Shown one piece after another: positions 1,848 through 18,332 of a DNA stretch of 46,911 bases. Source of the DNA: a virus. The stretch is taken from positions 1-46,911 of IMG/VR virus record IMGVR_UViG_3300025138_000074; one strand, written 5' to 3'. Every line of letters starts with the position of its first letter. Position 1 is the stretch's first letter. The position numbers and the translations under genes are program-made. Under the pieces are notes generated by a model, which was given only the letters and a program-made list of their open reading frames with translations, did not search any database and had not been told where the DNA came from.

Positions 1848-2486
1848 ATGATTGATTACGGTAGAATATATAGCAGAGTAGATGACTTCTTACAATCGAG
1901 AGAAGGTCTACGTAATCCTAAAAATTCACAAGATTATGTTTGGTTTGTTAGAGAATTAACTGGTATCTTTTGTGGTGCTAGTTATGAACATAATCTTACT
2001 ACAGGGGCTATATTGCATTATTTCGATATGGTTCAAATTCATAATATAACTAACTTGGATACTTCTGGAACACAGAGAGAAGTTAAAGCTCTTATATCTG
2101 AAGAAATCTTGGAACATCCTTTGTATGAAATTACCGAGTTTACGCTAATGAATTATAAGCCTGGTAATGTTCAAGTAGGTCCTGGTGAATTTTTCTTTTG
2201 TTTCTACGATAGTACTTCTACATTCGGTATTGATAATCAAGCTGGATATGATGTTATAGTTGATAACACTACAACAGAGTTTAAAAAGCTAGGTTCTAAC
2301 TTCACTTCGCCTGAGTTGTTTGATAAATATGCTGAATCGAAAGAAGTAGAAAGGTTGTTAGTTATTAAACCTGTTTCTAATGCTAAGAAGCCAGCACTTA
2401 GATCTAAGTACGCGTGTACGCCGACTACAAAGTGGAGAACAGCATTTACACATAGAGGTAAAGCTGGAACACTTGCAATGTCATAG
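1848..2486 (+). CDS. Hypothetical protein, possible PD-(D/E)XK-type fold
   Basis: A 212-residue soluble early protein with SD AGGAG 8 nt before the ATG. Residues about 104-145 contain GPGEFFFCFYD, then GYDVIVDN, then TTEFKK: an acidic residue followed after about ten residues by E-x-K, with a preceding GxGE helix. This arrangement is seen in restriction-endonuclease-like folds and in other phage hypothetical proteins with a G-D-h-x(n)-E-h-K pattern. The remaining sequence is not recognised. A nuclease role is a weak inference; the fold could be degenerate. It is transcribed from P4, and its stop lies inside the AGGAGG that begins a hairpin before the next gene. Confidence 0.6.
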   Translation: MIDYGRIYSRVDDFLQSREGLRNPKNSQDYVWFVRELTGIFCGASYEHNLTTGAILHYFDMVQIHNITNLDTSGTQREVKALISEEILEHPLYEITEFTLMNYKPGNVQVGPGEFFFCFYDSTSTFGIDNQAGYDVIVDNTTTEFKKLGSNFTSPELFDKYAESKEVERLLVIKPVSNAKKPALRSKYACTPTTKWRTAFTHRGKAGTLAMS

Positions 2487-2506
2487 GAGGTAATCCTCCT
2501 CGGAGG
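2485..2506 (+). promoter_or_regulatory. Competing hairpins around a Shine-Dalgarno
   Basis: AGGAGG (2485-2490), TAAT, CCTCCT (2495-2500) form a perfect 6-bp inverted repeat. The following CGGAGG (2501-2506) is the Shine-Dalgarno of the gene at 2512. CCTC (2495-2498) can pair either with the upstream AGGAGG or, through a 4-nt loop, with GAGG in the Shine-Dalgarno, so the two stems exclude each other. Confidence 0.5.
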
Positions 2507-2511
2507 TTTAC

Positions 2512-2730
2512 ATGGAGCTTGTTTTTGCTCTTATTACATATTTAGGTTTGCAAACAGTTGATGAATCTTTTTTTAGAAATATTGATGATTGTAAATATTT
2601 TGCTGAGAGAATAAACAAACAACCATCAGTACCTAACAGAACTACAGGTCAAGATGTACCTAAAACTAGATCATACACAGCTGTATGTGAACCGCGGAAA
2701 ATTGATATTAAAAAAGTTAAGGTTTACTAA
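2512..2730 (+). CDS. Small exported two-cysteine protein (family of three)
   Basis: A 72-residue protein with a hydrophobic N-terminus (MELVFALITYLGL) and two cysteines, one in FRNIDDCKYFAERIN and one in YTAVCEP. The same plan (short signal-like segment, aromatic-x(5-6)-C-x2-Y/F, second C near the end) recurs in the two opposite-strand neighbours at 2717-2959 and 2956-3201, so the three look like diverged paralogues. A disulphide in the periplasm or membrane-proximal space is likely. CGGAGG precedes the start by 5 nt and may be masked by a hairpin. Its last 14 bases overlap the convergent gene. Function unknown. Confidence 0.68.
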   Translation: MELVFALITYLGLQTVDESFFRNIDDCKYFAERINKQPSVPNRTTGQDVPKTRSYTAVCEPRKIDIKKVKVY

Positions 2731-2959
2731 TTGTATTATAAACTTTTTGAGCATCTTCCTCAGTTATACACTTTATCATATAATTATTTATTTTAGGTTT
2801 AGAAAAATTTAATTTAAGTTGTTCTACTAATTGTAGTTTATATTTGTTAAGATAAAGATTACATTCATTTTGTGTAGTGAAGTGTAATCCCCCATGTACT
2901 TTTAAATTAGGGGATGGATTATTTGCAAATGTTACCATTGCTACTAATAACCATTTCAT
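2717..2959 (-). CDS. Small exported two-cysteine protein (family of three)
   Basis: An 80-residue product beginning MKWLLVAMVTFA, a probable signal peptide or anchor, followed by HFTTQNECNLYLNKY and a second cysteine in MIKCITEED. It resembles the genes on both sides (2512-2730 and 2956-3201) in size, hydrophobic start and cysteine placement. The ATG overlaps the preceding stop as ATGA (2956-2959), so it is co-translated with its neighbour. It converges on and overlaps the plus-strand gene by 14 bases with no terminator between them. No function can be assigned; it may act in the envelope during lysis or superinfection exclusion (speculation). Confidence 0.7.
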   Translation of the reverse strand: MKWLLVAMVTFANNPSPNLKVHGGLHFTTQNECNLYLNKYKLQLVEQLKLNFSKPKINNYMIKCITEEDAQKVYNTISKP

Positions 2960-3201
2960 ATGCTAGTTCCTTGAGGTTTTAGAAGTTGAGGAATTAATTT
3001 TTTATCGACACAATAAATTTCTTTAGGTTTCAATTTATATCTATATGCTTCAAAAGATTTTTTATATATAAATTGATTGTAACTTTGAACATACTTATTG
3101 CAATCTTGAAATGATGTAAAGGAAGGTTGTGTAAAGATATAAAAAGGTTCACCTGCAGCTGGATTTACTGCATACATAAGCACTACAATTAAATAAGTCA
3201 T
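2956..3201 (-). CDS. Small exported two-cysteine protein (family of three)
   Basis: An 81-residue protein with N-terminal MTYLIVVLMYAVNPAAG, compatible with a cleavable signal peptide, then SFTSFQDCNKYVQSYN and a late cysteine in EIYCVDKK. It is the third member of the local two-Cys family. No Shine-Dalgarno is visible; a late-promoter-like AATAAATA on the minus strand lies 7 nt before the ATG, inside the loop of an 11-bp inverted repeat that includes the start codon. Late expression, perhaps as a leaderless message, is inferred. Confidence 0.7.
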   Translation of the reverse strand: MTYLIVVLMYAVNPAAGEPFYIFTQPSFTSFQDCNKYVQSYNQFIYKKSFEAYRYKLKPKEIYCVDKKLIPQLLKPQGTSI

Positions 3202-3227
3202 AACATTTTATTTATTAATGTTATGAC
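3197..3227. repeat. Perfect 11-bp inverted repeat around a late promoter
   Basis: GTCATAACATT (3197-3207) and AATGTTATGAC (3217-3227) are exact inverted copies with a 9-nt centre. On the minus strand the centre contains AATAAATA, a late promoter element, and the left arm contains the start codon of the gene at 2956-3201. It could be a protein-binding palindrome or an RNA hairpin. Confidence 0.75.
3209..3216 (-). promoter_or_regulatory. Late promoter element (AATAAATA)
   Basis: Read on the minus strand this is AATAAATA, one mismatch from the T4 late -10 element TATAAATA, 7 nt before the ATG at 3201. Confidence 0.55.
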
Positions 3228-10105: not shown

Positions 10106-10769
10106 TGTACTTATCAATCCTTTCTTTTAATTCATTTGTATATTTTATAATATCTTTTTTGTTAAGTGTAAATGTTTGAGTTGTACCATCTTGTACAGAA
10201 ATCAAAATACATACTTGAAAAGGCATCTCTCCAACTAATTCTCTATATGCCATAAAATAAAAACAACCTTGCAAAAAATAATCACGTATCCATATTTCTT
10301 TTTTAGGTCTTATAGATGTTTTAAAATCTATAACTGATAATTTACCTTCGTATTCAGCAATACAATCAACAGTACCAGCTACTTTTAATATATTTGAATG
10401 CAGCTGTGTTTCTAAACATCTAACATTGTCTATTAAATCTAATTTAGGACGTATCCCCCTAAATAGAAACTCACCACTAGTAGAACCAAGATCATCCAGA
10501 GGCTCATTGAGTAAATAGTCCTCGCAGAGCTTATGCATTGAAGTACCGCGAGTTGTAGCAGCCTTAGTAACTTTCCTGGCTTGTTCTTCACCAACTCTCT
10601 TACGCCATTTAACAAGCGAACTTTTATCAGAAGTTTTAGATAAGACAGTTGTAATTGAAGGATATGATATCTTTGAATTAATTTCATAAACTCTACCTTT
10701 GTCTTCGCTGTTTATTTGTTTAATCTTGGGAATCTCTTTCCAAAGATGATTGAATTTTTTTAACATCAT
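10086..10769 (-). CDS. RecB/MGME1-like PD-(D/E)XK exonuclease
   Basis: A protein of about 227 residues with the motifs of RecB-family nucleases: an N-terminal helical part (PSITTVLSKTSDKSSLVKW), GTSMHKLCEDYL, AGTVDCIAEY giving the first metal-binding Asp, LSVIDFKTS (the D-x-K motif), and QGCFYFMAY (the QxxxY motif). Such proteins in T4-like marine phages are annotated as exonucleases and are thought to trim ends in replication or recombination. The annotated frame can start at GTG 10772; two ATG codons follow at 10769 and 10766. It overlaps the 3' end of the ClpX-like gene by 50 bases. Confidence 0.88.
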   Translation of the reverse strand: MMLKKFNHLWKEIPKIKQINSEDKGRVYEINSKISYPSITTVLSKTSDKSSLVKWRKRVGEEQARKVTKAATTRGTSMHKLCEDYLLNEPLDDLGSTSGEFLFRGIRPKLDLIDNVRCLETQLHSNILKVAGTVDCIAEYEGKLSVIDFKTSIRPKKEIWIRDYFLQGCFYFMAYRELVGEMPFQVCILISVQDGTTQTFTLNKKDIIKYTNELKERIDKYNGLTSN

Positions 10770-11856
10770 CACTAGTAACTGTAATACCTTTCAATTCAAA
10801 CATACTATCTAATAGTACATTTTCTATAATAGTTTTTAATCCTCTAGCACCAGTTTTCTGATGCAAAGCTAACTCCGCTATTGATTGTAAAGAATCTTCA
10901 CCAAATTTTAATTCTAATTGTGATTCTTCAAATAATTTTATATATTGTTCAGTAGGATTATTTTTTACTTTTGTCAATATATAAATTAAATCTTCAACTG
11001 TCAATTGTCTCAAAGCTGCTATCAGTGGTATCCTACCTATCAACTCAGGTATGAAACCATAATCTTCAATATCTTGTGGAGTACATTTTTGTAATAAAGC
11101 TACATCAGGATCATAGTCTTTGATACTAGCATTGACACCTATATTTGTAGTTGGTCCTACTTTTAGTCTCTTTGCAATGTTTTCTTCTAATCCAACAAAC
11201 GCTCCACCAACAATGAACAATATGTTAGTAGTATCAACCTGAAATTTCATTCTAGTTAACCCGGTCTGCTTTTCAATATCTACTGTTGTACCTTCCATTA
11301 ATTTTAATAATGCTTGTTGTACACCTTCACCTCCAACATCTCTTTGTTTATTTCCATTAAATCTTTTTGCTATCTTATCAAATTCATCAATAAAAATAAT
11401 TCCTGTTCCAGCTGCTTCAAATGATTGACCAGCTGCTGAAATCAAACCATCTATCATTGTTTCAACATCTTTACCAACATATCCTGCAGCTGTTAATGAA
11501 TTAGCATCAGCTATGTGTACTGGAACTTTTAAAAACTCAGCTAATTTTTTTACTAGATAAGTTTTACCTGTACCTGTAGGACCTAACATCATTACGTTGG
11601 TTTTATCTAACCGTACTTTGAATCCTGAGTCTCTATAAATCATCAATCTTTTATAATGATTAAATGCTGCTGTAGCTAAAACTTTTTTAGCTTTATCTTG
11701 ACCTACAACATAACTATCAAGGTAATTATATATTTCTTTTGGTGATGGTAAATCAAAATCCAACATAGCAGTTGAATCGTGCACTAAGTCAATCTTTTCC
11801 TTCAACCCTTCTAAAAATTCAGAAAGGAATTTACTATCTTTATCCGCAATTTTCAT
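10720..11856 (-). CDS. clpX: ClpX-like AAA+ unfoldase without zinc-binding domain
   Basis: A 378-residue AAA+ protein clearly in the ClpX family: YVVGQDKAKK (about 49-58), Walker A GPTGTGKT (92-99), pore loop GYVG (125-128), Walker B FIDEFD (155-160), GGEGVQQALLKLMEGT (175-190), FIPELIGRIP (268-277) and TGARGLK near the end. E. coli ClpX is 424 aa; the N-terminal C4 zinc domain that binds adaptors is missing. The RKH substrate loop is shortened and replaced by EKQTGLTRMKF, and the ClpP-docking IGF tripeptide reads IGV (239-241). It may remodel phage or host proteins without ClpP, or engage host ClpP weakly. Confidence 0.93.
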   Translation of the reverse strand: MKIADKDSKFLSEFLEGLKEKIDLVHDSTAMLDFDLPSPKEIYNYLDSYVVGQDKAKKVLATAAFNHYKRLMIYRDSGFKVRLDKTNVMMLGPTGTGKTYLVKKLAEFLKVPVHIADANSLTAAGYVGKDVETMIDGLISAAGQSFEAAGTGIIFIDEFDKIAKRFNGNKQRDVGGEGVQQALLKLMEGTTVDIEKQTGLTRMKFQVDTTNILFIVGGAFVGLEENIAKRLKVGPTTNIGVNASIKDYDPDVALLQKCTPQDIEDYGFIPELIGRIPLIAALRQLTVEDLIYILTKVKNNPTEQYIKLFEESQLELKFGEDSLQSIAELALHQKTGARGLKTIIENVLLDSMFELKGITVTSDDVKKIQSSLERDSQD

Positions 11857-12103: not shown

Positions 12104-12279
12104 TATAGTGTTTCTTTGTTGGTTATTATCTTTTTTGCTAATTCATCAAAGAATACTTTAAAAGATTTATCTTCTTTAAAGATTACCGGTTTGGCATCCA
12201 TTAAGTTAGATAGTGCATTCCATGATGTTCTTGCTGCTCTCAGAGCTTTTTTACTGTACATATAGTGTGACTGTTCCAT
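12103..12279 (-). CDS. 58-residue hypothetical protein
   Basis: A small gene found in the gap. It has AAGGAG 6 nt before its ATG at 12279 and ends in a TAATG overlap with the MPTY gene. The product (MEQSHYMYSKKALRAARTSW...) is basic and helical, with an aromatic-rich second half (KSFKVFFDELAKK). Not recognised. It is the first gene of the minus-strand replication operon that runs to gene 32. Confidence 0.78.
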   Translation of the reverse strand: MEQSHYMYSKKALRAARTSWNALSNLMDAKPVIFKEDKSFKVFFDELAKKIITNKETL

Positions 12280-12311
12280 TATTACTCCTTTATATTATAA
12301 TGAATTTTTGT

Positions 12312-12319
12312 AATAAATA
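12312..12319 (+). promoter_or_regulatory. Late promoter-like element (AATAAATA)
   Basis: AATAAATA 43 nt before the ATG at 12363, in the divergent gap between the replication and virion operons. Confidence 0.5.
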
Positions 12320-12362
12320 TCTTACAATACAAATTATTTATCAGAAAGTTGTAATTCATTTA

Positions 12363-12983
12363 ATGGAAATTAACAAAAGATTAAAAAATCAAAGACAAAT
12401 AAAAAACAATATTAGTGAAAAAAAAGAAAATGCTAGTATTGATAAAAGAACTATAGCTAAAAAATTTAGAGAACTTGCTTTAAAAGCTCAAAAAACATTA
12501 GGCACTAAAGAATCGATTAGCTTCTTTAGAGATAAATTAGTTAGAAGAAGAGTTGATCACGATACTCTTCTAAAAAATTATAAAACTACTTCTTCTCCAA
12601 AACCAGGATCTATGTTAGTGTATACATATGATCCTAAACATAAAGATAAGTTACCATTCTATGATACCAATCCTTGTATAATACTTTTAGATTATACAAA
12701 AGATGGATGGTATGGAGCAAATTTACATTACTTACCTCCTACTGCTAGAGCTGATTTATTAGTTGAAATTGGTTGGAATAAAAACGTTTCTTTGTTTAAT
12801 ATAGCTAAAGCATTAGAAAGAAATAAAATAACTAAACATTGTTTAAAAAGATATCTAAGAAATCAATTAAATAGTAGACTAAAGGTAGTAAACAGGGAAG
12901 ACTGGGAAATTATTATACAATTACCATTTGACGCTTTTGTAAATGAAAGCAGAGGTCGCATCTGGAGGAAAGTTAAAAGATAA
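12363..12983 (+). CDS. Conserved T4-like phage late protein of unknown role
   Basis: A 206-residue basic protein. The frame is open from 12213, but the added part is hydrophobic shadow over an opposite-strand gene; MEINKRLKNQ at 12363 is the natural start. It contains KPGSMLVYTYDPKHKDKLPFYDTNPC, then GANLHYLPPTARADLL, and ends with WEIIIQLPFDAFV; from memory this layout is conserved among diverse myoviruses. I cannot confirm a name; in T4, small head-maturation genes (2, 4) lie next to tail genes, so a role such as DNA-end or head completion is possible but unproven. It is TAATG-linked to gene 54. Confidence 0.75.
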   Translation: MEINKRLKNQRQIKNNISEKKENASIDKRTIAKKFRELALKAQKTLGTKESISFFRDKLVRRRVDHDTLLKNYKTTSSPKPGSMLVYTYDPKHKDKLPFYDTNPCIILLDYTKDGWYGANLHYLPPTARADLLVEIGWNKNVSLFNIAKALERNKITKHCLKRYLRNQLNSRLKVVNREDWEIIIQLPFDAFVNESRGRIWRKVKR

Positions 12984-13798
12984 TGTCACTACAAGAATTC
13001 AAAACTTCAGCATATGCAGATACAGGATTTGCAAGAGCTAATAAATTTATAGTAAATGTATTCTTACCAAATTCAAAAACTGCTATGGGTGCTGGTTTAA
13101 TTGGCACATTATTTAAAAATATGCCAAGTACTCCTTTTTCTCAACCAGGTAGTTCATTTATAAATATCCCAGGTTTTTTCACTGGATCTCAAGGTGTAAA
13201 TATAGATGCTGCACAACCATTGAGAAATGCATTGGCTAATAAAAATTTTGTTAGTGGTGTAAGTAAATTAGGAAGACCTATATCTGGTTTTGTTTTTCAA
13301 AATATTATTGGAAGAGGTAGACAATTAACTTTATATTGTACTGGAGCAGAAATTCCATCAAGGGATATTGAAGCTACTGAGTTGTATCTTTATGGCGAAT
13401 CAAGACAAGTAGGTTTTAGACATCAACATCAACAATTATCATTACAATACTATTGCTCGGAAGATTTAAGAGAAAGAAGATTTTTTGAAGAATGGCAAAA
13501 TATGGTTTTTGATCCTGTTCATAAAAATGCTGGATATTATGATGAATATACTTCAACAGTTCAAGTACAGCAATGGGATTATGGTTTAACTAGAAAAATG
13601 GCAGAATATGTTTTTGATGAAGCATATGTAGCTACTATAGGTAATCTAAATTACGAATATGCTAATTCTGAGATTCAGAGGTTATCAGTAAGTTTTAATT
13701 ATAGGAATTATAGAAGAACAGATTCAGGCTCTACAGGAGGTCTTGGTGATGTCGTTGGTAACTTTGCTAAAAAAATAGCTAACGGAATAGGAATATAA
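12983..13798 (+). CDS. gp54: Baseplate tail-tube initiator, gp54-like
   Basis: A 271-residue tail-tube-fold protein. The central part (LTLYCTGAEIPSRDIEATEL, then GESRQVGFRHQ and LSLQYYCSEDLRERRFFEEW) is typical of gp19/gp54-type tube proteins, with a matching FDPVHKNAGYYDEY stretch. T4 gp54 (320 aa) sits on the hub and starts polymerisation of the tube. It has no SD and is translationally coupled by TAATG. It is here separated from genes 29 and 48, while in T4 it follows them. A tube protein paralogue cannot be fully excluded, but gene neighbours favour gp54. Confidence 0.75.
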   Translation: MSLQEFKTSAYADTGFARANKFIVNVFLPNSKTAMGAGLIGTLFKNMPSTPFSQPGSSFINIPGFFTGSQGVNIDAAQPLRNALANKNFVSGVSKLGRPISGFVFQNIIGRGRQLTLYCTGAEIPSRDIEATELYLYGESRQVGFRHQHQQLSLQYYCSEDLRERRFFEEWQNMVFDPVHKNAGYYDEYTSTVQVQQWDYGLTRKMAEYVFDEAYVATIGNLNYEYANSEIQRLSVSFNYRNYRRTDSGSTGGLGDVVGNFAKKIANGIGI

Positions 13799-13799
13799 G

Positions 13800-14255
13800 A
13801 TGGGTGATATAAATCAATTGAGTGTTGACTTAACAGCTATGATACTTCCATGGATGGGTGTGATACTATCTGTAATTATTGCTATTTGGTTAAAAGACTT
13901 TGCAACTAATGCTGCAAAAGGTTGGGCATTTAAATCTAACCAATCTTTTAACGAAGGTGATCATATTATACTAGATGGTAGAGATGCAATAATAGTTAAG
14001 ATAGGAATGTCCCAAACGGTATTTGGTGTCTATACAGATAAAGGATACACGTGGAGATATATTTCAAATGATAGATTAGCTAGTTCTAAAATAGAAAAAA
14101 TAATTAATAAAAATCTCCATTTAGATACAGAAGCTGAAAAAGGTATGAGAATTCAAAAGATGATCGATGCTTCACAAAATAATATGATAAAACAAAACGA
14201 ACAACAAATAAAAGAGAATAAGAAAAAGATCGAAGAGTTGAAAGAAAAAAAATAA
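13800..14255 (+). CDS. MscS-like minimal channel-domain protein
   Basis: A 151-residue protein. After a short N-terminus comes one membrane helix (about 13-31, LPWMGVILSVIIAIWLKDF), then ATNAAKGWAF and FNEGDHIILDGRDAIIVKI, TVFGVYTDKG and a YISNDRL turn. This matches MscS from the end of TM3 (LSNLAAG) through the beta domain (F-x-x-GD-x-h and the IPN turn). The first two helices of MscS and the C-terminal alpha/beta cage are absent; instead a 50-residue charged coiled coil ends the protein. It sits between genes 54 and 26 in a virion operon. A membrane pore or DNA-entry or lysis role is speculative. Confidence 0.65.
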   Translation: MGDINQLSVDLTAMILPWMGVILSVIIAIWLKDFATNAAKGWAFKSNQSFNEGDHIILDGRDAIIVKIGMSQTVFGVYTDKGYTWRYISNDRLASSKIEKIINKNLHLDTEAEKGMRIQKMIDASQNNMIKQNEQQIKENKKKIEELKEKK

Positions 14256-14269
14256 ATTATGAGGACATT

Positions 14270-14971
14270 ATGAGTTTAAAAAATATTAAATTAAAAACAC
14301 CTGAATATGATGACAAGGTTCCTTCTACAGAAGAAAATATAAAATTTAGACCTTTTACAGTAGCTGAAGAAAAATTATTATTAATTGCAAGTGAGTCAAG
14401 TGATAATAAACAAATTGCTGATTCTATGAGAAAAATAATAACTAATTGTACTGGTATTGATGCCTCTACATTAACTTATTATGACATAGAATATCTTTTT
14501 ACAAAAATAAGATCTAAATCTGTTGGTGAAGTAGCTAAATTAAAATTCAGTTGTGAAAAATGTGAAACTGAAAATGAAGTTGGTGTTGAATTAGACAAAG
14601 TATATATAAAAAGAACTGAAGATCATACTAACATAATAAAACTTGATGAAAATTTAATATTTGTTTTAAAGGAACCTCAACTAGAGGCTTTAGGTTTATA
14701 TGATGATGATAAAAATTCTGTTGATAACATAGTTAACATAATTTGCAATTCTTTAAAAAATGTACAATTGGATGATGAAATAATAGAAGTTAATGCTAGT
14801 GAAATAGAAGATGCAAAAAATTTAGTTGAACAATTGACTTCAGATCAATTTAAAAAAATAAGTTCTTTTTTTGATACAATGCCAAAAACTAATATAGATC
14901 TTGAATTTACTTGTTCTCATTGTTCTGAAATAAATAAAAAAACTTTGGAGGGTATGCACAATTTTTTTTAG
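14270..14971 (+). CDS. gp26: Baseplate hub assembly protein gp26-like
   Basis: A 233-residue protein of the T4 gp26/gp51 type: KFRPFTVAEEKLLLIA near the start, the TYYDIEYLFTKIRSKSVGE segment, and two CxxC pairs (CEKC about residues 93-96, CSHC about 218-221) that could bind zinc. T4 gp26 acts in assembling the central hub. GAGGACATT precedes the ATG. The gene ends AAT TTT TTT TAG, and a -1 frame remains open across this stop, so ribosomes could shift into the downstream frame (see 14962-14993). Confidence 0.85.
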   Translation: MSLKNIKLKTPEYDDKVPSTEENIKFRPFTVAEEKLLLIASESSDNKQIADSMRKIITNCTGIDASTLTYYDIEYLFTKIRSKSVGEVAKLKFSCEKCETENEVGVELDKVYIKRTEDHTNIIKLDENLIFVLKEPQLEALGLYDDDKNSVDNIVNIICNSLKNVQLDDEIIEVNASEIEDAKNLVEQLTSDQFKKISSFFDTMPKTNIDLEFTCSHCSEINKKTLEGMHNFF

Positions 14972-14993
14972 TTAACCTTTCTCACACAGGGTT
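14962..14993 (+). promoter_or_regulatory. Probable -1 programmed frameshift site (gene 26 to 51)
   Basis: T-TTT-TTT at 14962-14968 is in the correct phase for -1 slippage and is followed at once by the TAG stop of gene 26. After a 5-nt spacer, AACCTT (14974-14979) can pair with AGGGTT (14988-14993; one G-T pair) over an 8-nt loop. Slippage would join 233 residues of gp26 to 65 residues ending at 15165, a product of about 298 residues. Confidence 0.65.
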
Positions 14994-15003
14994 GGTAGTA
15001 TTT

Positions 15004-15165
15004 ATGAAAAATATTTTTGCTTGTATGCAACATCATAATTGGTCATATACAGAAATAATGGAAATGTTACCGTGGGAAAGGGATATTTACTTTAACTTTT
15101 TAGTTGCACATATAAAAGAAGAAAATGATAAAATTGAACAACAAAATAGAAAGATTAATAGCTAA
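15004..15165 (+). CDS. gp51: gp51-position short ORF; probable frameshift extension of gp26
   Basis: A 53-codon frame from ATG 15004, open upstream in the -1 frame right through the end of gene 26. The product contains HHNWSYTEIMEMLPWERDIY and a charged coiled-coil end; this small aromatic/WER helical module recalls the T-domain of G/GT-type tail assembly chaperones, which binds the tape measure. The ATG has only a weak AGGG 12 nt away. The stop overlaps the tape measure ATG (TAATG). In T4, gene 51 follows gene 26. Both independent translation and frameshift fusion are possible. Confidence 0.72.
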   Translation: MKNIFACMQHHNWSYTEIMEMLPWERDIYFNFLVAHIKEENDKIEQQNRKINS

Positions 15166-16832
15166 TGGCTAAATTAAATGAAGATGCAATTCAAGATCTA
15201 GCTAAATCTATTACTGGAATGTTTAATGTTTTTAAAAGTTCTTCAGAAAGAACTTATGATCTTTTAATCAAAAGAAGAGATCAAAATAATAAAAAAATTG
15301 AAGATCTTCAACGTCAAATAACTCAAGAAACAAGATCAGGTCCTCCGACAGCTGATAGTGCTAGAATTGTTAGAGAAGCACAAAATAAAATTGCTAATCT
15401 AGAACAACAAACGTATGATCGTATTGAAAGATATAAGGGTAGATTTGGTGAAAGACAGTTAAAAAATCAACAAAGAAAAGAAACAGATCCTGCATACAAA
15501 AAATTTACAAGAGGTAAAACTAAAGGCGATGAAAGTAGAATGGATAAAGTTAAGTTTGGATTACAAAAAGAAGGAATAGGTCTTCTCAAAAACATAGGTA
15601 AAAAAATAGGAGATTTCATAAAAGCACCTTTCAAAGCTATTAATACAGTAGTTGATGCAGGAATTAAAGGTATACTACTTGCATTAGGTTTTGCTTCATT
15701 TGTAAAATTTTTAGAAGGGCTAGAAAAAGCATCAGAGTGGTTTGGTGAAAATCCATCATTTGGAGAAATTATCTCTTCAGGTTTAGCTAATTTAATTGGT
15801 TTCTTTACAGGTATGAATGAAGAAGAAAGAAAGAAATTAGCTAAAGATATTAAAGAAGGATTTCAAACTATCAAAGATGGATTTTTTTATATTATAGATT
15901 CATTTAAAACATTTACAAATATTGTTACTAAATTAATAGAAGGTGATTTTAAAGGGGCATGGAAAGAATTTCAAAAAGATGGAGCTGTGTGGAAATTTGT
16001 TACTGCTATGTCATTATTAGCATTAGCTATATTGCCTTTTATAGGTATACTAACTCCATTAATAGCACTTTTTGGTTTTCTACTTAGTCCTTTTAAAAAA
16101 TTATTAAGTAAATTAAAAACTACTAAAGCAGAAATCAAAAAACTAGACAAACAAGATAAACCTAAAAATAATAAAACATACAATAGAAACAGTAAAGGTC
16201 AATTTGCAAAAAAACCTCAATCTAATGTTTCAAGAATTGCTAAAAATTTACTTGAAGGTTTGAAAAAAGGTGGAAAATATGCTGTTAACATTTTAAGAAA
16301 TGGTACACCTTTAATTGTTCCCTTTACATTAGGTTCTATATTAGCAAACGATGATGGAAAATCAACTGAAATAGCTAATCAAAAAAATAATTTATTAAAA
16401 CAAGGGTTAACCAAAAACGTAGATGCAAAAGCTGAAGATGTATTTGTAGAAGATCTCAATTCAACTGCTGGAACAGACAAATATAATTTTGCAGATAGAG
16501 TTAATAATATAAAAGATAAAAACCTTACTAATGCATTAGAAAATTATTTTACTAAAAACCTTAAAACTGAATTAGAATTAAAAATTCAAAAAATGCAATT
16601 GATTCCAGATGAATCAACTGCTTTATCAGAAACAAATACTCAATTGCAAGGTTCTATTGAATCTGTCAATAAACTTACTGAAACATTACAAAATCATTTT
16701 AAAAAATTAATGCCTAACGATGTCAAAGTTAATAATACTAGTATTAATAACACACAAGTTACACCTAAAATGGAAATGAAATATTTTACTCCAAGTAAAG
16801 GTAAAGGTCCTTATTCAAACGTGTTAACTTAA
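15165..16832 (+). CDS. gp29: Tail tape measure / hub protein, gp29-like
   Basis: A 555-residue lysine-rich protein with an N-terminal coiled coil (about 20-110), hydrophobic segments at about 165-184 and 279-308, a basic low-complexity linker (about 325-350), and a polar C-terminus with helical repeats. Length, hydrophobic centre and coiled coil fit T4 gp29 (590 aa), which sets tail length and is the core of the hub. It directly follows the gp26/gp51 chaperone-like pair and is followed across gene 4 by gene 48, as in T4. Sequence identity alone is weak; the assignment depends on synteny and architecture. Confidence 0.78.
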   Translation: MAKLNEDAIQDLAKSITGMFNVFKSSSERTYDLLIKRRDQNNKKIEDLQRQITQETRSGPPTADSARIVREAQNKIANLEQQTYDRIERYKGRFGERQLKNQQRKETDPAYKKFTRGKTKGDESRMDKVKFGLQKEGIGLLKNIGKKIGDFIKAPFKAINTVVDAGIKGILLALGFASFVKFLEGLEKASEWFGENPSFGEIISSGLANLIGFFTGMNEEERKKLAKDIKEGFQTIKDGFFYIIDSFKTFTNIVTKLIEGDFKGAWKEFQKDGAVWKFVTAMSLLALAILPFIGILTPLIALFGFLLSPFKKLLSKLKTTKAEIKKLDKQDKPKNNKTYNRNSKGQFAKKPQSNVSRIAKNLLEGLKKGGKYAVNILRNGTPLIVPFTLGSILANDDGKSTEIANQKNNLLKQGLTKNVDAKAEDVFVEDLNSTAGTDKYNFADRVNNIKDKNLTNALENYFTKNLKTELELKIQKMQLIPDESTALSETNTQLQGSIESVNKLTETLQNHFKKLMPNDVKVNNTSINNTQVTPKMEMKYFTPSKGKGPYSNVLT

Positions 16833-17432: not shown

Positions 17433-18332
17433 ATGTATTACACATTTCCTAGTAAAGGTTTAGGAGTTCCAAACGAGATTCCTGGATGGATTCAGATAAT
17501 AGCAAGACAAGTTAATTTTGGTTTAACTAAAACAGTAAAAAGACCCAGTACTTTAAGAGGCAATTCTAATATTGGAAGTGAATCAGCTGACACTGAAGCT
17601 GATACCTTTCAAACAAGCGCTACAATTTCTTTACCTATGCCTCAAAATTTACTTTATGCTCAAGCTGCAGGCTACAATACTGAAAATGTTGGAGCAACAG
17701 GAGCAGCTATTGCAGACGCTACTAATTCTTCTTCATTATCAGACTTAGTAGCTAACAAAGGCGCAGGTTTGTTATCTGGTGTATTAACAGACTTGTCTAG
17801 TATAGTTAAAAATCCTTTACAGTTAGCAAAAGGCGTTGTAGCTAATCCTTTTTCATTTACTATGTTTGGTTCAATGGCTCATAGAACATTTAATTACAGT
17901 TGGGTATTTGCTCCAAGAAATGAAATTGAATCAAATGAGATAAAAGCTATTTGTGATGCTCTATCTTATTTTCAATTACCAGGAAGAGACACAGAAGGTT
18001 TTTTACAATTTCTTGAAATTCCTTTACAGTTCGATATAGATTATTGGTGGATGAATGGACCAGATGCATATCTAGAACAACCCAATAGATCAGTACTTTC
18101 AAACATTACAGTTAATTATGGTGGTACTACAAGAGCACAAAGACATATAAATGGTGCACCGATAGAAATAGGATTAGATTTAACTTTTGTTGAAGTAGAA
18201 CCGTTAATTAGAAATAAAATTGGTCACGCTGATACTTTAACTGGAGGAGATAAAATTAAAGCTGCAGAAACAAAAACACAAAAGTCAATTACGAAATTTA
18301 AAAGTGGTGGATATATGGATGGTGTAATATAA
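17433..18332 (+). CDS. gp48: Baseplate tail-tube cap, gp48-like
   Basis: A 299-residue protein with the C-terminal tube-like fold of T4 gp48 (364 aa): FGSMAHRTFNYSWVFAPRNE, ALSYFQLPGRD, EIPLQFDIDYW and a LSNITVNYGG segment, then IGLDLTFVEVEP. The N-terminal part has a low-complexity alanine/serine region (about 85-115). It caps the hub and connects to gp54 and the tube. It begins an overlapping gene chain 48-53-27-5. Confidence 0.85.
   Translation: MYYTFPSKGLGVPNEIPGWIQIIARQVNFGLTKTVKRPSTLRGNSNIGSESADTEADTFQTSATISLPMPQNLLYAQAAGYNTENVGATGAAIADATNSSSLSDLVANKGAGLLSGVLTDLSSIVKNPLQLAKGVVANPFSFTMFGSMAHRTFNYSWVFAPRNEIESNEIKAICDALSYFQLPGRDTEGFLQFLEIPLQFDIDYWWMNGPDAYLEQPNRSVLSNITVNYGGTTRAQRHINGAPIEIGLDLTFVEVEPLIRNKIGHADTLTGGDKIKAAETKTQKSITKFKSGGYMDGVI

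Follow-up and report, generated by a model that had tools for sequence, protein, structure and literature searches.

A stretch of viral DNA of 46,911 nucleotides (IMG/VR record IMGVR_UViG_3300025138_000074, positions 1 to 46,911; hereafter, the window) carries a gp26-like ORF and, overlapping its end, a gp51-type reading frame, and the locus raises the question of whether the two are separate genes or parts of a single gene expressed by programmed -1 ribosomal frameshifting. The gp26-like ORF (14270-14971, plus strand) codes for a protein of 233 aa, the putative short tail assembly chaperone, TAC-N, which matches PF12322 (E = 1.1e-51) and phrog_150 (E = 3.9e-54). As the original prediction had it, the ORF ends in AAT TTT TTT TAG (codons starting at 14960, 14963, 14966 and 14969), and the sequence confirms that a heptamer, U_UUU_UUU (14962-14968, plus strand), lies in phase for -1 slippage with the TAG stop (14969-14971, plus strand) immediately 3′ of it; the run comprises eight T (14962-14969). 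The -1 frame (14962-15165, plus strand) is indeed open up to a TAA stop (15163-15165), which overlaps the ATG of the next ORF (15165-15167) as TAATG; the length originally given, 65 codons, has to be corrected, in that 66-67 residues would be added depending on where counting starts (67 when counted from 14962). This extension, the candidate gp51-type tail of a longer protein, TAC-NC, matches phrog_634 (E = 1.5e-18), the gp51 family, annotated as 'baseplate hub assembly catalyst'; a comparison with Pfam gave nothing above the curated cut-off, DUF6760 appearing only at E values of 0.03-0.09. Homology to the T4 gp26 and gp51 families was found for both the gp26 part and the extension.

The gene order in the window is gp26, extension and then a 555-aa ORF (15165-16832, plus strand), placed in the tape measure position by its location, by the TAATG overlap and by a family match that is only weak (phrog_16297, tail length tape measure protein; E = 0.00078). 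The surroundings are T4-type, with a gp2-like DNA end protector (12213-12983) and a tail tube family protein (12983-13798) upstream. Downstream follow a gp48-like tail tube cap (17433) and, at 18332, a gp53-like wedge protein. An ORF of 151 aa (13800-14255, plus strand) separates the tail tube family gene from gp26; by eye it has a hydrophobic stretch at its N-terminus, and it is without a PHROG or Pfam match. Elsewhere in this marine T4-like phage, an ORF of 378 aa (10720-11856, minus strand) resembles, again by eye only, a ClpX-type AAA+ ATPase, with a GPTGTGKT motif.

In a window of 30% GC, T runs call for caution. Runs of seven T are common, yet fewer than expected from shuffling (57 found, 89 expected), and their abundance was rejected as evidence by itself. 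A second in-phase T_TTT_TTT occurs inside gp26 (14866-14872, plus strand); slippage at 14866 would end early, since the -1 frame that leads into the extension is closed until 31 nt before the gp26 stop. Because such runs are common and one of them recurs in phase within the same gene, the T run alone proves nothing. An open frame of 67 codons has a probability of about 0.003 by composition. Judged by these figures, the window sequence alone is only moderately beyond chance, and it is conservation in relatives that settles the observation.

The slippery site in related loci

Loci of relatives were retrieved by similarity to the gp26 protein only; three isolates were added and near-duplicates removed, leaving 89 distinct loci, 85 of which are not cut by a contig end. 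A heptamer of the form T_TTT_TT[C/T/A] is present in all 89 loci, read in the zero frame and separated from the gp26 stop by 0-8 codons, so that both the T run and its phase, for which the original prediction had called for an alignment of relatives, are kept throughout; the seventh base is C in 63 loci, T in 23 and A in three. Past the site, the -1 frame extends for 59-71 codons in every one of the 85 uncut loci, which supports the proposed frameshift from gp26 into the gp51-type extension. The zero-frame residues at the site are Asp, Ser, Asn or Ala followed by Phe-Phe or Phe-Leu, all of which could be encoded without a slippery run. Nevertheless, the first Phe codon is TTT in 89/89 loci, as compared with 77% elsewhere in the same genes (nominal probability 5e-11), and T is the last base of the preceding codon in 89/89, with 57 expected (nominal probability about 1e-18); the loci are related to each other, and these nominal probabilities overstate their independence. 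On this codon usage, the choice of slippery codons at the site goes beyond the need of the protein, with no exception among the 89 related loci.

The same in-phase T6 site followed by the -1 extension is found in named isolates from several families: in P-SSM2, P-HM1, Bellamy, S-RIM8, S-CRM01, C48C1 and Mosig (cyanophages and relatives), as well as in Schizotequatrovirus PVA23, Aeromonas phage 65 (Emmerichvirinae), Vibrio D479 and Bakedbeans, Stenotrophomonas Yut2, Rhizobium RHph_I9 and Pseudomonas 30-3. A search for further close relatives of the window returned only the contig of one already in the collection (L002) and distant loci.

Some other loci show related arrangements. In Bacillus phage SP-15 (L108; gp26-like ORF at 2483-3223), a gp51-like extension lies in the +1 (or -2) frame, not -1, and adjoins a T6 run (GAA TTT TTT CAC), possibly reflecting another direction of shift. 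The same -1 extension follows gp26 in three loci of Ackermannviridae (L103, L109 and L114), in Pseudomonas Cygsa01 (L104) and in Vibrio D495 (L102); their sites are ATTTTC- or CTTTTC-like, not T6, some carry a TAATG stop-start overlap, and either frameshifting or reinitiation is possible there. In a distant gp26 relative (L012, match at 3001-3135), finally, TTTTTTC again occurs close to the end, and the -1 frame stays open some 70 codons beyond the stop but lacks a recognisable gp51-type motif.

A Shine-Dalgarno-like element upstream of the site

A feature overlooked in the original prediction is a Shine-Dalgarno-like GGAGGG (14947-14952, plus strand), a likely stimulator of slippage, of which the GGAGG (14947-14951) ends 10 nt upstream of the heptamer. 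Among the 89 loci, 85 have GGAGG, GAGG, AAGG or AAGGA ending 8-10 nt upstream of the heptamer. The element overlaps a conserved Leu-Glu-Gly of gp26, and its codons can be compared with those used for the same amino acids elsewhere. For Glu, the ratio for GAG is 52:25 at the element and 543:1501 elsewhere (p = 2e-13, related loci with their kinship ignored); for Leu, TTG or CTG is used in 49/79 cases versus 395/1688 (p = 1e-12, kinship likewise ignored); and for Gly, GGG is used in 18/88 versus 23/506 (p = 3e-6, again ignoring kinship). By this comparison, codon choice at the element is well beyond what the protein requires.

Constraint on the extension and alternative explanations

The most serious alternative treats the gp51-type frame as a small gene in its own right, with a start codon of its own at which reinitiation or translational coupling would begin its translation; in the window the candidate start is ATG 15004, and in some cyanophages it is an ATG that closely follows the gp26 stop. 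Most records annotate the frame separately, an ATG is found at codon 5 of the -1 frame in 28 loci, and in P-SSM2 an ATG lies 2 nt past the gp26 stop. However, the part of the frame that precedes such starts behaves as coding sequence. Over -1 codons 4-18, ahead of the conserved core, the -1 frame has stops in 0/85 loci, versus 65 and 80 for the other two frames, and it is never closed upstream of the start codon in relatives, a point on which the original prediction could have failed. Changes between nearest relatives over the same codons number 155, 115 and 280 at first, second and third positions, and among the residues of the extension, numbered from the first Phe, His8, Leu11, Asn18 and Phe19 vary hardly or not at all. 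When the window is compared with L002, a single close relative, 18/23 of the changes after the ATG are at third positions and only three changes fall within the first 42 nt. This pattern argues that the extension is protein-coding and conserved ahead of any likely start codon. Moreover, 24/85 loci offer no ATG, GTG or TTG within the initial 14 codons of the -1 frame, and loci with and without a nearby ATG alike retain the slippery run (89/89); the starts annotated for C48C1 and for Mosig fall inside the conserved core. Nor does ATG 15004 have a good ribosome-binding site in the window: the nearest GGAGG is the one described above, and the 52 nt between them is too far for it to be an ordinary ribosome site for this ATG. 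We therefore reject a separate gene with its own start for most loci and regard it as improbable as a general explanation; reinitiation could be an additional source of product where an ATG closely follows the stop (about half of the loci, e.g., P-SSM2).

From the comparative evidence, we consider it very likely that a single gene, expressed by programmed -1 ribosomal frameshifting, comprises both gp26 and the gp51-type frame. The majority of ribosomes would stop at TAG 14969 and produce the short chaperone, TAC-N, of 233 aa, and a fraction would slip on U_UUU_UUU to produce TAC-NC, with about 66 extra residues; pairing of the anti-Shine-Dalgarno sequence with the GGAGGG about 10 nt upstream may aid slippage. 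If the roles are those of lambda G/GT, coating of the tape measure protein would fall to the short form, and the extension of the long form would link the chaperone to tail parts. We infer that slippage occurs, as well as its efficiency and the tape-measure-coating role.

A fused protein could also arise if RNA polymerase slipped on the T run and added a U to some transcripts, which would then be translated normally. The run of eight T in the window might permit some slippage of this kind. Runs of six T are too short for efficient transcript slippage, however, and since the run in 66/89 loci stops at six T, with C or A next, the explanation is unlikely family-wide; the strict codon phase and the Shine-Dalgarno-like element fit ribosomal slippage instead, and we give transcript slippage an even smaller chance than a separate start. 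That the split is an assembly or sequencing error and gp26-gp51 truly one continuous frame, as might be suspected since T runs are error-prone in some sequencing methods, is practically discounted and already refuted family-wide, since 89 distinct loci, the majority carrying TTTTTTC, show the same frame relation, as do the genomes of isolates (P-SSM2, P-HM1 and Bellamy, among others).

RNA structure downstream of the site

The original prediction had also pointed to a hairpin. Its core stem, AACCTT (14974-14979) paired with AGGGTT (14988-14993), is present as described, with 6 bp including one G-U and an 8-nt loop; it begins 5 nt after the heptamer and can be extended to 8 bp (14972-14995, plus strand; -5.3 kcal/mol). 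Its significance did not hold up: set against shuffles of the 32 or 49 nt around it, the window hairpin shows no excess stability (z of -0.44 and +0.15), although the 20-nt hairpin taken alone gives a z of -1.9. RNAalifold found no consensus structure in the window's own group, and the hairpin is not shared by the wider group. We therefore rejected it as key evidence and consider its role in this phage uncertain.

Across the family, the RNA just 3′ of the site forms more stable structure than shuffles do (mean z of -1.15 to -1.43 at offset 10), and a scan along the gene indicates that this signal is local. Groups of loci were defined by peptide, not by structure. In group B (28 cyanophage-type loci with Met at position 9 of the extension), a 5-bp stem covaries (score of 0.355 versus 0.234 for shuffles, sd 0.026), a value reached in 0/500 shuffles and above all slid controls; it sits at the place that matches the window hairpin. 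Group A (12 loci, including P-SSM2) has an 11-bp stem with modest covariation. The downstream structure thus appears to be a genuine component of the signal, though one confined to certain lineages.

Fold and probable function of the gp26-like protein

An AlphaFold2 model of gp26 (pLDDT 90) was compared with known structures. For residues 1-94, the top three matches are 2ob9, the HK97 tail assembly chaperone, 3fgx and 3klu (YqbN), the latter two of which we take to be members of prophage tail chaperone families; the Z scores of 6.0-6.7 over 83-85 residues are middling, under 8. Foldseek gave no significant match for the model (E above 1), and a comparison of the gp26 profile with the sequences of solved structures gave nothing useful. 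Taken with the gene order and the frameshift, the middling fold match makes a G/GT-type tail chaperone the best reading of the gene.

Very probably, the 'baseplate hub gp26' and the 'baseplate hub assembly catalyst gp51' of cyanophages and other marine T4-like phages are then one frameshifted chaperone gene. The extension matches 562 phage records, and none of the annotation tables examined joins the gp26 and gp51-type frames. If the proposal is true, the short downstream gene is misannotated in hundreds of records and the long protein is missing from databases.

Comparison with known systems

Tail building with the help of a frameshifted chaperone is common to many phages. The lambda G/GT genes share with the window a short protein, a -1 frameshift just before its stop, an extension frame and then the tape measure position. 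The lambda slippery sequence is G GGA AAG, as opposed to U UUU UU[C/U/A] in the window and its relatives, and there is no detectable sequence homology, the link being gene order and the middling fold match. In Escherichia coli dnaX, the signal consists of a Shine-Dalgarno-like element, a slippery heptamer and a downstream hairpin. The resemblance is one of architecture only: the window and its relatives have the element about 10 nt upstream of a heptamer as in dnaX, but the heptamer is of U instead of A, and the hairpin, weak in the window, has good support in only some of the relatives.

A different arrangement is found in the Tevenvirinae, T4's own group. Mobillu and Cronus encode gp26 and gp51 as two genes, one on each strand, and no gp51-type extension follows gp26. 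The Tevenvirinae gp51 contains a gp26-like domain (hhalign E = 1.1e-8), to which is joined, in frame, a C-terminus that matches the frameshift extension (hhalign E = 1.2e-6). By these profile comparisons, it is what the frameshift product would be elsewhere, and the Tevenvirinae appear to do without frameshifting. The T4-type two-gene arrangement was not found in the window, a 46.9-kb fragment in which only the short -1 extension follows gp26; a second copy could lie outside the fragment. Because the Tevenvirinae gp51 combines a gp26-like domain with the same extension, and because of the middling fold resemblance, the equivalence with G/GT put forward in the original prediction is supported.

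The same prediction treated this equivalence as one not yet established for T4, a view since overtaken: Vladimirov, Gautam and Davidson (2022; Virology 566:9-15), as cited in PMC10885494 and PMC12846349, identified the tail chaperone genes of T4-like phages. As there, gp26/gp51-type genes are here seen as the chaperones TAC-N and TAC-NC. According to PMC10885494, that study describes a short gene and a longer fusion gene in some T4-like phages, which fits our Tevenvirinae result, and PMC12846349 credits it with poly-T slippery sequences in T4-like TAC-N genes. Its title stresses a non-frameshift mechanism, whereas frameshifting would be the rule outside the Tevenvirinae here. The chaperone identity and the poly-T sites of T4-like phages thus appear, from these citing papers, to have been published already. 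Pseudomonas phage Adele and the Vandenendeviridae/Andersonviridae are also described as shifting to -1 where TAC-N ends, on a conserved poly-T site (GTTTTT), and there the extension is open in every genome (PMC12846349); these are other phage families with a different chaperone sequence, and the account in PMC12846349, so far as it bears on the site, mentions no Shine-Dalgarno-like element.

On balance we lean, by a little, towards a broader view in which frameshifting from one gene is ancestral in T4-like tail chaperones, with a three-part signal (Shine-Dalgarno-like element and U6 heptamer, joined in some lineages by a hairpin), and in which the T4 subfamily is derived through gene duplication and fusion; the Shine-Dalgarno-like element and the covarying hairpin are possibly undescribed. 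The T4-like phages would then offer a natural comparison, in which a ratio of proteins set by frameshifting has been replaced, in the T4 line, by two genes.
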